Source: Bacillus pumilus
GTDB lineage: Bacteria > Bacillota > Bacilli > Bacillales > Bacillaceae
Assembly: GCF_038738535.1 (NCBI RefSeq)
Contig: NZ_CP046128.1
Coordinates: 3,162,001 to 3,226,000, forward strand
Direction of reading: 5' to 3'
Length of the DNA stretch: 64,000 nt
In this document: in pieces, positions 34,687 to 39,901 of the stretch
Layout: each line of letters starts with the position of its first letter
Position numbering within the stretch: position 1 is the first letter of the stretch
The notes under the pieces: generated by a model
Database searches by the model: none
What the model was told of the DNA's origin: nothing
The model's input: the letters and a program-made list of their open reading frames with translations, nothing else
Program-made: the position numbers and the translations under genes

Positions 34687-34690
34687 AACG

Positions 34691-34720
34691 AGCGTCTCTC
34701 CAACAAAGAGACGCTTTTTT
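34691..34720. terminator. Terminator between ywnH and the thioredoxin-like gene
   Basis: GCGTCTCT/AGAGACGC stem, seven-base loop, six Ts on plus; modest T content on minus. Confidence 0.9.
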
Positions 34721-35249
34721 ATGAAGCATGTAACAGCTGTTCAAACTGTTTCGCATTTTGAAGAGATTTTCTTTGCAGGATGATCCCATGTTCATCCATC
34801 AGAATCGCTTGCGGAACAACAGTTACCCCATACAGCTCCATGATTTGCGAAGAGCGCACATACACAGCTTGATCAGGCAGCAATTGAAGAAGCGACGCAT
34901 CATCTCCTTGTTCATCTCCATTGATCAAAATGAATTGAGTATCGTCGCTAGAGATGTGCTGCTTCATATCAGACAAAATGCTTTTGCATGTCATACAAGT
35001 AGAGTTCACAAATAACAGCATCACGGCTCTTCCGCTCTGCAAATATTCCTTTAAAATGACCTTATCCCCTAAATGTGTATAGCTTCGAAATAACGGCGCC
35101 GCATCACCAACATCCGCTTCCTTTAATTCAATCCCATCAAGGGTTTTGATTTTATTCATAAATTTTCCGATAAAGCGGGCAAGCAAAAACACCACAGCCA
35201 GCTGAGCAATGACAATGAATAACACAATAATCAGTAGAATATCTGTCAT
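34719..35249 (-). CDS. Membrane-anchored thioredoxin-like protein (MauD/TlpA type)
   Basis: 176 aa. N-terminal membrane helix (about 3-25), then an extracytoplasmic thioredoxin fold with redox pair C85-M-T-C88 and a cis-Pro turn (TVVPQAIL). Likely handles disulfides of an exported substrate. Its ATG overlaps the upstream MauE-like gene by 4 bp, and that gene is one base from the ABC exporter, so the three are one translationally coupled operon. MauD and MauE work together to mature a disulfide-rich subunit in methylamine utilisation, a functional precedent. Last gene before the terminator. Confidence 0.85.
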   Translation of the reverse strand: MTDILLIIVLFIVIAQLAVVFLLARFIGKFMNKIKTLDGIELKEADVGDAAPLFRSYTHLGDKVILKEYLQSGRAVMLLFVNSTCMTCKSILSDMKQHISSDDTQFILINGDEQGDDASLLQLLPDQAVYVRSSQIMELYGVTVVPQAILMDEHGIILQRKSLQNAKQFEQLLHAS

Positions 35250-35800
35250 TTCACTTGGTCTCCTTCTATAAATGATTCAAATTGATTCCACTTTCTTTTG
35301 AACATCATGATGTCTTTTCCCACCGCTATAATGAAACAGACAGCCACTGCAATCAGAAAACAAATAATGTGAAATTGCCATGGAATTGTTTCTACATAGG
35401 AATGCACATAAAACAAGCCAATCACAAGAGCCAGCATCGACACATTACGAATCACAATTCCCCAGTGAAGACGGTCATTTTCAAGTAAACCTCCACAGCC
35501 GCATGAAATGTTACGATGTCCTCTCAATAAATTGAAAGTGACCGCTCCAGTATAGGTAAATAAAAGTGCTGTAAGACCAATCGCAGGTACAAGAGACATG
35601 TTCCATACGAACAATAGACCAGTACAAGCCAATTCAATAGTCAAAAACAAATAAAACATTGGCGCCGTGAGCGCAGAAGGCAGCAGCCGATAAGCATTCA
35701 TCTGTTGCATATGCGCCGTTTGTTTTCTCACTTTATCAAGCCATGCACCTGCAAAGATGATTCCTAAGAAATAGACACCTATAAAATAAAAGACACTCAC
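35246..35800 (-). CDS. MauE/DoxX-type membrane redox protein
   Basis: 184 aa with four to five hydrophobic helices and the loop cysteines C100-G-C102 in NISCGCGG, typical of MauE-like proteins that pass electrons to a partner thioredoxin. Start taken as GTG 35800, directly after the ABC gene stop, with AAGGAG ten bases upstream; the first membrane helix begins immediately. The open frame to 35866 would overlap the exporter. ATGA overlap with the thioredoxin gene. Confidence 0.82.
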   Translation of the reverse strand: MSVFYFIGVYFLGIIFAGAWLDKVRKQTAHMQQMNAYRLLPSALTAPMFYLFLTIELACTGLLFVWNMSLVPAIGLTALLFTYTGAVTFNLLRGHRNISCGCGGLLENDRLHWGIVIRNVSMLALVIGLFYVHSYVETIPWQFHIICFLIAVAVCFIIAVGKDIMMFKRKWNQFESFIEGDQVK

Positions 35801-35801
35801 C

Positions 35802-37601
35802 TTACGCCATCTCCTTTTGTTGAAATAGTTGAGATTGTGCCTCATAAAGCCTTTTGTACTCTCCACCTAGCGCCATCAGCTCTTCATGGTTCCCCTCTTC
35901 AACGAAAGCACCATCTTTCATCACGATAATGCGGTCTGCTAAGCGGGCCGCTCCCATACGGTGTGTGATAAACAAGACCCCTTGATCCTGCGTATGATCG
36001 AATAGCTTTCGAATGAGTGAAATCTCCGATAGCGGATCAAGAGCAGAAGTCGGTTCATCTAAAATGATAAAATCACTTTCTCTAAAGAAGGTTCTCGCCA
36101 TCGCAAGCTTTTGCCATTGTCCACCAGACAGTTCATGACCTTCTTCAAAAAACCGGCCAAGCTGCGCATCGTATGTTTCTTCCATTTGATGAATTCTTTT
36201 CTCTATGCCTGCTTGCCGCGCAGCTGTCACCATGCGCTCTTCCTCATCTATTTCGTCGATACCGCCAAATCCAATGTTTTCTTTCACAGTGAATTCGTAC
36301 TTCATAAAATCTTGAAAAAGGACAGCCATTCTCGCATGATATGATTTTTTATAAATGGTCGAAATAGACTCACCATTGACCTTTTGCATATTCGGCTTGT
36401 CTGGATCATATAAACCGGTCAAACATTTAATCAAGGTCGTCTTACCTGATCCGTTATCCCCCACCAATGCAATGCGTTCACCTTTATTGATATGAAAATG
36501 TATATGCTCAATAGCAGGCGTTTTCATATTCGGATAGGTAAAAGAGAGGTTTTCTAGCGTAATGGACCGAATACACTCAATCCTCCGAAGCGATGCCCCT
36601 TTCTCTGTCTGTTCATCAATTTCTTCTTCTCTCTTTTGAAAAGTTCTCATTTCATCAATATAGAGACTCGTTTCATATAAACTAGAACATTCCCTCGTTA
36701 AGTCTTGAAAACCACTTTGAATATTTTGCACAGCTTGGAGCACAGCGACAAACGTACCCGCTGCTAATTTCTTTTGAAAGATAAGAAAGACAATAAAAAG
36801 ACCGCAACACACATAGGCAAATGTCATAAGCAATCCGCCTGCCATCTCCCAGCGAACCTGACGTTTTAGTAATTTATATTTTTCATCAGCACTTTTTACA
36901 TAATGACCTTTCCATTTTTGAAGAAGATAATGTCCTATTCCATATAAACGGATTTCCTTCAATGAATCTCGCTGTGCAACAAGGTCGGACACATACATTT
37001 CTCTTCGATCATTGGCCGTTAACATACGGTTTAATTGATACCGCGCGCCTCCAAAGAAGAGCTCAATCCACAAGACAGGCAGGGTAAATAAGATCAGAAT
37101 GACCGCCAAACCCCAATGGATACCGATCATATAAATGAGAAGTGATACAACAGTAATCAATGCGCTCATGATTGTAAAAATACTTCTAACCATACTCAGA
37201 ACATGCTGATGACTGTTCATCACACGTTGACTTTCATTATAAAAAGACGGATGTTCAAATGTAATATATGGCAGCCTGATTGCCTTTTGAAGCAATTCAC
37301 CCTTCAAATGCAAACCAATCATATTTGTCGCTTTTTGCTGACTAAGTTGAAGAATGAATTGAAGCCCATATCCTAAAACCACAATGACCATTTGCAACCC
37401 AAATAACCTTAAGACCTTTTGAATGTCTCCTGAAGAAGTCATGAATAAAATAATTTCATTAATCAATGTTTGAATAATCCAGACACTAGCCAAAGGCATA
37501 AAACCAACGATCACTTGGATCAATAGAGTTAACAGCAGATATGATCGACTTCTTTTCCAAGTATAGGAGATTGCATATAAACAATGGTTCACTGTACTCA
37601 T
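35802..37601 (-). CDS. ABC exporter (membrane plus ATPase domains)
   Basis: 599 aa: six-helix exporter domain (about 1-320), then ATPase with Walker A GDNGSGKTT, signature LSGGQWQKLAMART and Walker [10 protein letters not shown]. No C39 peptidase domain, so it does not cut double-Gly leaders itself. Start ATG 37601 is six bases after AAGGTGGAG. First gene of the exporter-MauE-thioredoxin operon; the divergent second thioredoxin lies 97 bp away. Context implies export of the six-Cys peptide at 38692-38886. ATPase chain is intact. Confidence 0.88.
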   Translation of the reverse strand: MSTVNHCLYAISYTWKRSRSYLLLTLLIQVIVGFMPLASVWIIQTLINEIILFMTSSGDIQKVLRLFGLQMVIVVLGYGLQFILQLSQQKATNMIGLHLKGELLQKAIRLPYITFEHPSFYNESQRVMNSHQHVLSMVRSIFTIMSALITVVSLLIYMIGIHWGLAVILILFTLPVLWIELFFGGARYQLNRMLTANDRREMYVSDLVAQRDSLKEIRLYGIGHYLLQKWKGHYVKSADEKYKLLKRQVRWEMAGGLLMTFAYVCCGLFIVFLIFQKKLAAGTFVAVLQAVQNIQSGFQDLTRECSSLYETSLYIDEMRTFQKREEEIDEQTEKGASLRRIECIRSITLENLSFTYPNMKTPAIEHIHFHINKGERIALVGDNGSGKTTLIKCLTGLYDPDKPNMQKVNGESISTIYKKSYHARMAVLFQDFMKYEFTVKENIGFGGIDEIDEEERMVTAARQAGIEKRIHQMEETYDAQLGRFFEEGHELSGGQWQKLAMARTFFRESDFIILDEPTSALDPLSEISLIRKLFDHTQDQGVLFITHRMGAARLADRIIVMKDGAFVEEGNHEELMALGGEYKRLYEAQSQLFQQKEMA

Positions 37602-37632
37602 CAAACGCTCCACCTTACACCATTTAGTATAA

Positions 37633-37662
37633 TTGACATATTTTTGATATTTATATTATGAT
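37633..37662 (+). promoter_or_regulatory. Promoter of the divergent thioredoxin gene
   Basis: TTGACA (37633-37638), 18-bp spacer, TATGAT (37657-37662). A minus-strand TATACT (37631-37626) for the exporter operon abuts it, so the two promoters may interfere. Confidence 0.7.
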
Positions 37663-37698
37663 AGCTCTGCGTAACTTCATTCTGAGAGGACGATAACG

Positions 37699-38208
37699 AT
37701 GAATTCAATCTTACTTTTACAGCTCACTCTTATTCTTTGCAGTCTTTTATTGACGATCGGAATCATCATCTATTTAAAACACCAGATGGAATTAATCATC
37801 TTACCGATCCAGCATGTCGGACAAAAACTTGTTCATCCGCTAATTGAAAAACCATCACCTATTCAAATGAATGATTTGCTGCAAACCAATCACAAGCAAC
37901 AGCTGCTTATATTCACTGACACAGCATGTCCGCACTGCATCCCATCACTGGAACAATTCCTAGAAACGAAAAGGCAGCGTCAATTAGACATTTCTTTTAG
38001 TATTTTGCTAAAGAATGGGCAAGAAGAGGATCAAGAATTATATCGTGATAACCAAACCAACATGCAAATTATCTCAGTGGACGAACAAATGATAGGCGCC
38101 TTTCATATTGAAGAGTTTCCATATTACATCTTGGTAGAAGAAGATGAAACAATCTCATATGCAGCCCCTTTTCCGGATGGTCTTTATTCAAGGATTTCTG
38201 CAAAATAA
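37699..38208 (+). CDS. Second membrane-anchored thioredoxin-like protein
   Basis: 169 aa. N-terminal membrane helix (about 3-27), then a thioredoxin-like domain with the DsbA/PDI-style pair C77-P-H-C80 (TDTACPHC) and cis-Pro segment EEFPYYIL. CPHC is the oxidising-type dipeptide of DsbA, whereas the other thioredoxin here has CMTC; the two may oxidise and isomerise respectively (inference). SD AGAGGA before ATG. Own terminator. Confidence 0.82.
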   Translation: MNSILLLQLTLILCSLLLTIGIIIYLKHQMELIILPIQHVGQKLVHPLIEKPSPIQMNDLLQTNHKQQLLIFTDTACPHCIPSLEQFLETKRQRQLDISFSILLKNGQEEDQELYRDNQTNMQIISVDEQMIGAFHIEEFPYYILVEEDETISYAAPFPDGLYSRISAK

Positions 38209-38216
38209 ACATAAAT

Positions 38217-38255
38217 GAGGCATGTGAAGACAACAAACACACGCCTCGTTTTTTT
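38217..38255 (+). terminator. Terminator of the divergent thioredoxin gene
   Basis: GAGGC/GCCTC outer stem plus TGTG/CACA inner pairs, then seven Ts; ends at the stop of the convergent 134-aa gene. Confidence 0.85.
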
Positions 38256-38658
38256 ATTGGTGTGGATCTGCCTGAACATCCTGATCCTTTTCCCTTGCTG
38301 CGATTTCACTCGCTCCACTTGAAGCTGTCGCTTGTTCCTCAGCTTGTTCAAACTCACTGCGAGCCTCATTTGAAATGTCTACTTGGTCACCATGCTGATT
38401 CACAGTAACAGACGAAGAAGACGATTCTTTTTGAACCTCTTTCTCTAGTTCCTTTAATTTAGACACATGAAGCTCTAAATCTTTTCCTTGCTGAACTAGA
38501 GTCAGTTGTTGAAATAATGCCTTTCTCTCTTCTGGAGAATGGTCGCCTTGAACAATTTTCGCAGCTTGGTTTAAAAAAGAATTTGATGTTTGACCCGCTT
38601 GACGACTGTTTGACGTCTGCACAGCATTTGTTAAAAATGAAATTGAAGATATGCTCAT
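38254..38658 (-). CDS. Uncharacterised 134-aa acidic protein beside the Cys-rich peptide
   Basis: Not recognised. 134 aa, no signal peptide, no membrane helix, no Cys. N-terminal Ser-rich segment (MSISSISFLTNAVQTSNS), a predicted coiled helix around residues 45-80 (KLKELEKEVQKE), then a Gln/Glu/Ala-rich acidic tail. AGGATGTG precedes the ATG. It starts 33 bp after the Cys-rich peptide gene with no terminator between, so the two are probably co-transcribed; it could be an immunity factor or a chaperone for the precursor, but nothing in the sequence proves this. Confidence 0.7.
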   Translation of the reverse strand: MSISSISFLTNAVQTSNSRQAGQTSNSFLNQAAKIVQGDHSPEERKALFQQLTLVQQGKDLELHVSKLKELEKEVQKESSSSSVTVNQHGDQVDISNEARSEFEQAEEQATASSGASEIAAREKDQDVQADPHQ

Positions 38659-38691
38659 GCGTTCACATCCTATTAAATAAAATCCTTGAAT

Positions 38692-38886
38692 TTAGCAGCC
38701 ACATCTAACGCGTTCTTGGCTAGTACATATCTCACCTGTATCACGATCCACGTAGTAACGGAAAGTTCCAACACCTTGAAGGAAACAAGTTGGCGCTGAT
38801 TTACATGAAGTGACTAATTTTTGTAAAATACATCTTGAAGCTGCAGGTTGAACATTGGTCATTTTGTTTAAGAAACGATCTAACAT
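38692..38886 (-). CDS. Small six-cysteine peptide, candidate secreted bacteriocin-like precursor
   Basis: 64 aa; Cys at 19, 28, 34, 54, 62 and 64 (C-x8-C-x5-C-x19-C-x7-C-x-C), ending CGC. The first 18 residues (MLDRFLNKMTNVQPAASR) form an amphipathic leader-like segment without a Sec signal or double-Gly site. Six Cys fit three disulfides. ATG 38886 lies seven bases after AAGGTGG; a TTG at 38904 overlaps the SD. Strong promoter upstream. The nearby exporter and two thiol-redox proteins make a disulfide-stabilised exported peptide the best reading; activity is unknown. Confidence 0.75.
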   Translation of the reverse strand: MLDRFLNKMTNVQPAASRCILQKLVTSCKSAPTCFLQGVGTFRYYVDRDTGEICTSQERVRCGC

Positions 38887-38925: not shown

Positions 38926-38954
38926 ATAATAACCAATTAAAAGACAACTAACAA
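38926..38954 (-). promoter_or_regulatory. Promoter of the six-cysteine peptide gene
   Basis: Minus strand TTGTTA (38954-38949), 17-bp spacer, TATTAT (38931-38926); start about 33 bases before the ATG. Surrounding 38905-39170 is very AT-rich with no other gene. Confidence 0.7.
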
Positions 38955-39185
38955 CATATTTTGATAAATTTACTAATTATTTTTAACTACTAATCTTATT
39001 TATGACATAAACTGTCGTTAAAATTTATAGTAAATGTTACTTTTTTCTTATTTGAAGATAATTTATTTATCCATAAATAGTAAAGTGAAGATAGAAATAT
39101 TTTTTAATTGCTCTACATTCACTCTTCCTAAAGTACTACTTGCTCAAGTATGATAAAGAGTGAATACATAAAGGAGTGAACACCA

Positions 39186-39645: not shown

Positions 39646-39710
39646 GTTTGATCATTTGGCATTATTCATCCTACTAAGCTTGACATTCCGCCTTGATCAT
39701 TTTAAAATAC

Positions 39711-39751: not shown

Positions 39752-39901
39752 ATGCGCGTAAAAATTACCTTAGCCTGTACTGAAACGGGTGACAGAAACT
39801 ATATCACAACAAAGAATAAAAGAACGAACCCGGACCGACTGGAGTTAAAAAAATATTCTCCTCGGCTAAAGAAATATACCCTTCATAGAGAAACAAAATG
39901 A
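39752..39901 (+). CDS. rpmGC: Zinc-independent ribosomal protein L33 (C- form)
   Basis: 49 aa L33 lacking the two CxxC zinc-ribbon pairs (only one Cys, in LACTETG). Such C- paralogues replace zinc-loaded L33 during zinc starvation and release zinc. AAAGGAGG is spaced 12 bases from the ATG. Zur box directly upstream; zagA and a C- S14 gene follow, confirming a zinc-sparing cassette. Confidence 0.92.

Follow-up and report, generated by a model that had tools for sequence, protein, structure and literature searches.

Gene content of the locus

We analysed a 64,000-nucleotide stretch of the Bacillus pumilus genome (contig NZ_CP046128.1, positions 3,162,001 to 3,226,000; hereafter the window, to which coordinates without a locus label refer). 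Its block at 34719-38886 encodes a six-cysteine peptide, pep64, together with an ATP-binding cassette (ABC) exporter, a MauE-type membrane protein, two membrane-anchored thioredoxin-fold proteins, TlpA and TrxB, and a 134-residue orphan protein, p134. This block is one unit. A sequence-only reading of the same DNA had named all of these genes, among them an exporter devoid of a peptidase domain, a MauE-like protein with a CGC motif and two thioredoxins with different redox dipeptides, and every one of them was found in place. The exporter, MauE and TlpA genes form a single minus-strand run, coupled as that reading had described by a one-base gap and then a 4-bp overlap; trxB is divergent from the exporter gene, and p134 and pep64 lie farther right on the minus strand. 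A bidirectional terminator-like hairpin detected by sequence scan (34690-34716) marks the left edge.

The peptide gene is an open reading frame (ORF) at 38692-38886 on the minus strand. The 64 residues of pep64 carry cysteines at positions 19, 28, 34, 54, 62 and 64 (C-x8-C-x5-C-x19-C-x7-C-x-C), with 18 residues preceding the first; the calculated mass with three disulfides is 7205 Da and the net charge about +3.4. Judged from the sequence, pep64 has neither a classical signal peptide nor a double-glycine leader, and its first ~10 residues form a short amphipathic segment. AlphaFold2 predicts a three-stranded core at residues 21-64 (predicted local distance difference test, pLDDT, ~86) and leaves the N-terminus ill-defined. 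In Pfam and NCBIfam pep64 has no match at E<=1, and searching its sequence against PDB gave no convincing relative. A sigma-A-like promoter of pep64, TTGTTA-17-TATTAT (38926-38954, minus strand), is nearly identical in 11 genomes; because promoter-like sites across the region are no commoner than in shuffled sequence, its support is this conservation. Downstream of pep64 lies p134 (38254-38658, minus strand), predicted to be soluble and helical (mean pLDDT 65.9, confident only at residues ~30-70).

The exporter (35802-37613, minus strand; 603 residues) comprises a membrane domain and an ATPase by Pfam. Its alignment to TIGR01193, the model of peptide-cleavage exporters, begins at profile position 153 of 708, and the N-terminal peptidase part is therefore absent; no C39 family stands among the best 25 of its 26 Pfam matches. 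The MauE-type protein (35246-35800, minus strand; Pfam MauE, 2.3e-20) carries a CGCGG motif. Although its ORF is listed from 35866, translation probably begins near 35800, to judge by homologues and by the single base that separates it from the exporter gene. Its CxC, R140, N141, K45 and E78 are kept in all 14 aligned sequences, the MauE of a laterosporulin locus included. TlpA (34719-35249, minus strand) is a TlpA/MauD-like protein with a CMTC site (Thioredoxin_2, 2.7e-8) that matches the MauD model TIGR02661 at 1.6e-16, under its cut-off; the CxxC and the proline at the cis-Pro place are kept in 14 aligned sequences. TrxB (37699-38208, plus strand) alone gives a weak Thioredoxin_2 match (0.0011, below cut-off), while its family profile matches the ResA and StoA structures (1e-7 and 3.3e-6) and C77, C80 and P141 are invariant in an 18-row family alignment. 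Its CPHC site is that of DsbA as well. A sequence scan placed a promoter-like site, TTGACA-18-TATGAT (37633-37662), before trxB.

We take a flanking M23 gene to resemble spoIIQ and a flanking GNAT gene to resemble ywnH. A DUF5362 gene and a short ribosomal-protein-like ORF separate pep64 from zigA, about 1 kb away (ZigA model, E 1.1e-155, under the curated cut-off). A 49-residue ORF at 39752-39901 adjoins zigA; it is 96-100% identical at the site in the 17 genomes of the pumilus group defined below, and presumably resembles the short ribosomal protein L33.

Conservation and repeated loss in the pumilus group

Among 44 genomes of the genus, pep64 is found in 11, which share 94-98% identity, and it is 94-97% identical in B. 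australimaris, B. safensis, B. pumilus, B. zhangzhouensis and B. xiamenensis. A twelfth match (L012 of genome G038, E 0.0015) was dropped as chance, since it runs antisense to an ORF resembling a transporter. MauE occurs in the same 11 genomes and in the distant G036, and p134 is restricted to the 11. Gene order is identical in the ten other cassette loci; zigA, which lies outside the block, was not matched in one of them (L020 of G019). The mean pairwise ratio of nonsynonymous to synonymous substitution (dN/dS) rises from 0.064 in the exporter and 0.081 in pep64 to 0.115-0.168 in the redox proteins and 0.198 in p134. A search of a plasmid collection did not find pep64, and relatives of the exporter and MauE are carried by Priestia and Exiguobacterium plasmids.

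The pumilus group was defined by the SpoIIQ-like flank as 17 genomes with at least 95% identity, the other 27 having at most 70%. The cassette is complete in 11 of the 17 and absent from six; universality in the group was ruled out when the DUF5362 and SpoIIQ-like flanks revealed these six members. Genome-wide, none of the six yielded pep64, MauE or p134, and none has an intact exporter at the site, the exporter having been sought there and not elsewhere in those genomes. On the left side, their match to the window runs up to 34699, 34717, 34740, 34823, 34904 or 35161; on the right it resumes at 39041-39091, or at 39679 in G013. G034 retains a broken tlpA remnant, and G043 fragments of both tlpA and the exporter. 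On the flank tree the presence pattern requires five changes, of which starred branches force four; the main groups of this tree recur in the cassette tree. Judged by these varied edges, remnants, tree changes and agreeing groups, the cassette is ancestral in the pumilus group and has been lost repeatedly by deletion.

The sequence-only reading had seen the block as an insertion in a conserved backbone. This stands in so far as L200, from a genome outside the group, has a ywnH-like gene followed directly by a DUF5362-like gene, relative to which the cassette is an extra block; the insertion is not recent, given an ancestral cassette lost several times. That reading had also named, as a finding that would count against it, the loss of the peptide in relatives that keep the exporter and redox genes. 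None of the 17 genomes has intact machinery without the peptide at the site, nor the reverse. The gene zigA is matched at the site in five of the six cassette-free genomes, and the sixth, G013 (L193:7778-8253), has diverged fragments only.

A peptide family with constant machinery

Peptides from eight further loci (L118, L124, L077, L080, L091, L109, L120 and L122) can be aligned with pep64; identity is 18-30% and all six cysteines are invariant. When three rows were added, five cysteines remained invariant, with C19 and D47 at 90% or above. Most members have an aspartate before the fourth cysteine, and cysteine spacing varies among the relatives. The L124 peptide has 64 residues with six cysteines at positions identical to those of pep64; among the loci compared, L124 also has the exporter most similar to that of the window (E 7.2e-169, 43% identity).

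The family profile, A4, was applied at E<=1e-5 to two Bacilli samples, one of 398 genomes and an order sample of 397; E-values of rows inside the alignment are circular and were not used as evidence. In the first sample 11 genomes matched, all of them MauE-bearing, and two of the matches were absent from the profile: L141 (G463) and L151, the latter within MauE locus L078. In the second, eight genomes matched, four of them new, and all four have TrxB, exporter, MauE and TlpA adjoining. Over both samples, each of the 16 matched genomes has an exporter, MauE, a TlpA-type gene and a second thioredoxin-fold gene, the last of these resting, for G196 and G461, on the gene calls at the MauE loci. The neighbourhood search that the sequence-only reading had proposed thus bore it out more broadly than first thought. 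Two of these cassettes need qualification: that of G463 is split by contig ends, with parts present on both pieces, and the exporter of G120 (L091:5814-7602) was matched in several pieces, the longest called ORF having 352 residues, and may be interrupted. Weak profile matches in G289 and G202 (E 0.004-0.007) were not counted, their 3-kb loci having no recognised exporter, MauE or cysteine-rich peptide.

At three loci (L080:9146-14036, L210:2006-5921 and L212:868-4789) an ABC ATPase and a very large FtsX permease adjoin pep64-family or MauE-exporter cassettes; the large permease of L080 also has a peptidase M1 domain. We regard these ATPase/permease pairs as candidates for immunity or detoxification.

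MauE-exporter loci with other cysteine-rich peptides

Pfam MauE is present in 91 of the 398 Bacilli genomes. Sixty strong MauE loci were analysed with purpose-made gene calling, leaving out six strong f37/g50 matches taken as near-duplicates (G288 twice, G261, G305, G419 and G230:C13), two pumilus-group matches and weak partial matches. The exporter type lies nearby in 37 of the 60, L115 being included by exception with a 282-residue piece at a contig end. At 25 of the 37 loci with an exporter, versus 5 of the 23 without (Fisher p=0.0012), a small ORF of six or more cysteines lies within 5 kb; these counts retain one ORF of L083 (95 residues) that looks spurious and, among the five without an exporter, at least three likely composition artefacts (L093, L096, L100). 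Such ORFs number 43 in 575 kb near MauE versus 8 in 288 kb farther away; with a limit of at least four cysteines, 31 of 37 loci with an exporter have one versus 9 of 23 without. The sequence-only reading had raised the prospect of redox genes occurring constantly without a cysteine-rich peptide. On this point the outcome is mixed: MauE often stands without this exporter and then usually lacks an ORF of six or more cysteines, whereas with the exporter most loci have one.

The peptides at these loci have many seemingly unrelated cores, and tandem copies occur at L083, L095, L106, L120 and L124. Laterosporulin is carried by L112 (PF17861, 1.8e-41) and a second member of its family by L114 (1.6e-20), both in loci with MauE, thioredoxin and ABC genes. 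In G036, outside the pumilus group, the cassette (L041:6354-9539) comprises MauE, TlpA, a peptidase-less exporter and a peptide of 54-57 residues with seven cysteines and a GTG start, which has no convincing relative in PDB (best E 0.3); its flanking genes presumably correspond to gabD and glcU. At L095:5506-6276 and L106:5743-6508 there are three eight-cysteine peptides starting MGCP, with MauE, two thioredoxins and an exporter. These peptides and laterosporulin have an R-x-x-Y/F-x-x-C-like stretch in common; two L095 peptides scanned against the laterosporulin Pfam model gave no match.

Gene fusions link the redox proteins to one another and to export. L102:7815-10202 (minus strand) encodes a 795-residue fusion of a TrxB-type thioredoxin (CGLC) and an ABC exporter, in a cassette that also holds two cysteine peptides alike at the N-terminus. 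L119:2632-3804 (plus strand) encodes a 390-residue protein in which a MauE part is joined to a TlpA-like domain (CPYC), the latter judged by eye. Neither an exporter nor a cysteine-rich peptide was called near the L119 fusion.

MauE also adjoins cysteine-containing small ORFs at L110:3926-9764, L129:4093-7519 and L130:4499-8093, with asparagine-synthetase-type proteins at L110 and L130. We take these small ORFs to resemble lasso precursors, and by sequence the three loci may represent a disulfide-bearing lasso-type cluster.

A recurrent N-terminal segment

The amphipathic N-terminus of pep64, approximately M-x-x-K-[LIF]-x-K-[LM]-[LIF]-G, recurs across peptides with different cores. When 24 other-core peptides were scored with a matrix built from N-termini of the pep64 family only, nine exceeded the 99th percentile of a background of 789 N-termini; among the nine are near-copies (three from L083 and two plasmid homologues). 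A regular expression written after the test peptides were seen fits 14 of the 24 versus 25 of the 789. On an exporter tree of 44 rows, 39 of them labelled, the trait requires four changes versus a shuffled mean of 12.6, and none of 500 shuffles was as low; the tree is a quick one with some long branches, and the trait labels were assigned by us, partly by eye, L081 being scored positive despite a low matrix score. The segment is absent from laterosporulin, L041, L095 and others.

These observations would fit a modular platform common among Bacilli, in which a protease-less exporter, MauE and dedicated thioredoxin-fold proteins serve the swapped cores of many disulfide-rich peptides, most of them unannotated, and the N-terminal segment acts as an export or folding address. 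Laterosporulin would then be an outlying, address-less member and pep64 a conserved chromosomal member in the pumilus group. We consider this broader scheme evenly poised between being right and wrong.

Comparison with known systems

The sequence-only reading had recognised no bacteriocin system in this combination of genes. That no longer holds, as the laterosporulin gene adjoins the same kind of machinery. Laterosporulin is a class IId, defensin-like bacteriocin of Brevibacillus (PF17861/NF033806) and, like pep64, a small six-cysteine peptide without a classical leader; at L112 and L114, as at the pep64 locus, a peptidase-less ABC exporter, a thioredoxin-like protein and MauE adjoin it. This neighbourhood was found in the present analysis and forms no part of the family definition. 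The available part of the laterosporulin paper describes the exporter as having no significant N-terminal protease domain, speculates on removal of methionine only, and contains no occurrence of thioredoxin or MauE. The two systems also differ: L112 has one thioredoxin called where the pumilus cassette has two, the exporters fall on separate tree branches, and cysteine spacing is not the same, with 18 residues before the first cysteine in pep64. By sequence, pep64 is not a member of the laterosporulin family.

The methylamine utilisation (Mau) cluster shares with the pumilus cassette MauE and a MauD-like protein (here TlpA, under the model cut-off), but the cassette couples MauE to an ABC exporter and a peptide instead, and the nine proteins scanned from the block and its flanks include no methylamine dehydrogenase subunit. 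Passages of PMC7794033 mention the speculation that MauE makes disulfides in a subunit. The same passages, on decRiPPter, place mauE in three candidate families of Streptomyces, one of them also with mauD, and suggest a role in modification; these families are from Streptomyces, and no Bacilli cassette with an exporter and dual thioredoxins appears among those passages.

Sublancin/glycocin and bactofencin clusters, in the portions of the literature available, likewise combine a small cysteine peptide with cluster-encoded thiol-disulfide proteins. That of sublancin has bdbA/bdbB, a 19-residue leader and a glycosylated peptide; that of bactofencin has a thioredoxin-domain protein and an exporter whose protease domain removes the leader. 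The pumilus cassette has neither of the two glycocin hallmarks, exporter peptidase and glycosyltransferase, and no glycosyltransferase stands among the matches listed for the nine proteins. The sublancin exporter carries a peptidase domain.

In the available text of a BAGEL4/antiSMASH study of B. safensis, 12 clusters are reported, none of them named as a thioredoxin/MauE/cysteine-peptide cluster, and the word thioredoxin is absent from the main text of that study and of a Bacillales survey (PMC5100339). PMC11869030 was set aside as a paper on laterosporulin and MauE, having proved a surname match only, as were PMC9867215 and PMC7616364, whose available thioredoxin passages do not concern laterosporulin. 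Searches confined to open PubMed Central papers, judged by title and opening of the abstract, gave no description of MauE with an exporter and a cysteine peptide in Bacilli.

Interpretation

The block is probably a cassette devoted to making a secreted, disulfide-bonded peptide, most likely an antibacterial one (a bacteriocin) working like laterosporulin. Support is good for the gene unit and for its redox logic; the killing activity and the disulfides of pep64 are what we infer. The amphipathic first ~10 residues of pep64 may serve as a docking signal for the exporter, which, by homology, would carry the reduced peptide outward. Outside the cell, the families of the redox proteins suggest that TrxB (CPHC) and the TlpA/MauE pair would introduce and reshuffle three disulfides, MauE presumably conducting electrons through the membrane. 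What the genomes show is that these genes are gained or lost together in descent, that cysteines are retained across the peptide family and that machinery of the same kind adjoins laterosporulin, whose bacteriocin activity is proven.

Several observations weigh against this interpretation. Bacteriocins are often patchy and variable, whereas pep64 is nearly unchanged between species (94-98%). The pumilus cassette has no obvious immunity gene: p134 has no known domain and no membrane segment, and DUF5362 persists in five of the six cassette-free genomes (it was not found in G013), which makes it unlikely as an immunity gene. The AlphaFold2 model of pep64 has no clear match among known structures; pep64 matches neither PF17861 nor NF033806, and hhalign gives a probability of 0.6% for its relation to laterosporulin. 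Six of the 37 MauE-exporter loci are without an ORF of at least four cysteines, although L078 among them has a peptide by profile.

Some of these observations would also be expected if the secreted disulfide peptide were a signal or public good, such as a pheromone or an extracellular structural peptide, rather than an antibiotic. Strong purifying selection on a near-invariant pep64, vertical inheritance, a strongly conserved promoter region and the missing immunity gene all suit such a role, which we nonetheless consider unlikely. The machinery is common to the antibacterial laterosporulin, the cassette has been lost in 6 of 17 genomes, and no receptor or two-component protein is present among the nine proteins scanned. 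The very diverse cores and tandem copies at related loci also speak against a signal, and the tandem copies and the ABC/FtsX-type neighbours of several loci suit a toxin accompanied by immunity.

Very improbable is the proposal that the peptide is unrelated to its neighbours, the exporter and redox genes being a general module for oxidative stress or cytochrome maturation. It draws on the 18 of 23 exporter-free MauE loci that have no ORF with at least six cysteines, and on the promoter-like site that pep64 and p134 have to themselves while running opposite to trxB. Against it stands the joint presence or absence of peptide and machinery in all 17 pumilus-group genomes and their co-occurrence in all 16 peptide-profile genomes, four of them new to the profile. 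That pep64 binds metal, as a metallothionein-like peptide or metallophore, with the exporter moving it or a metal-thiol compound, is brought to mind by its six cysteines, its CxC ending and the zinc metallochaperone-like zigA nearby, but is scarcely credible: dedicated extracytoplasmic thioredoxin-fold proteins indicate disulfides rather than free thiols, zigA is uncoupled from the cassette both in five of the six genomes that lost it and in the G019 locus, and no gene at four annotated plasmid loci is named as zinc-related.

If the production of a secreted disulfide-bonded peptide is the correct interpretation, MauE adjoining a protease-less exporter would be a genomic handle on many unannotated disulfide-rich bacterial peptides, of a kind that the available text of two genome-mining studies does not list. 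Two questions would then become concrete and testable: by what means three-disulfide peptides are folded outside bacterial cells that have a Gram-positive envelope, and whether a short N-terminal address substitutes for the usual cleaved leader.

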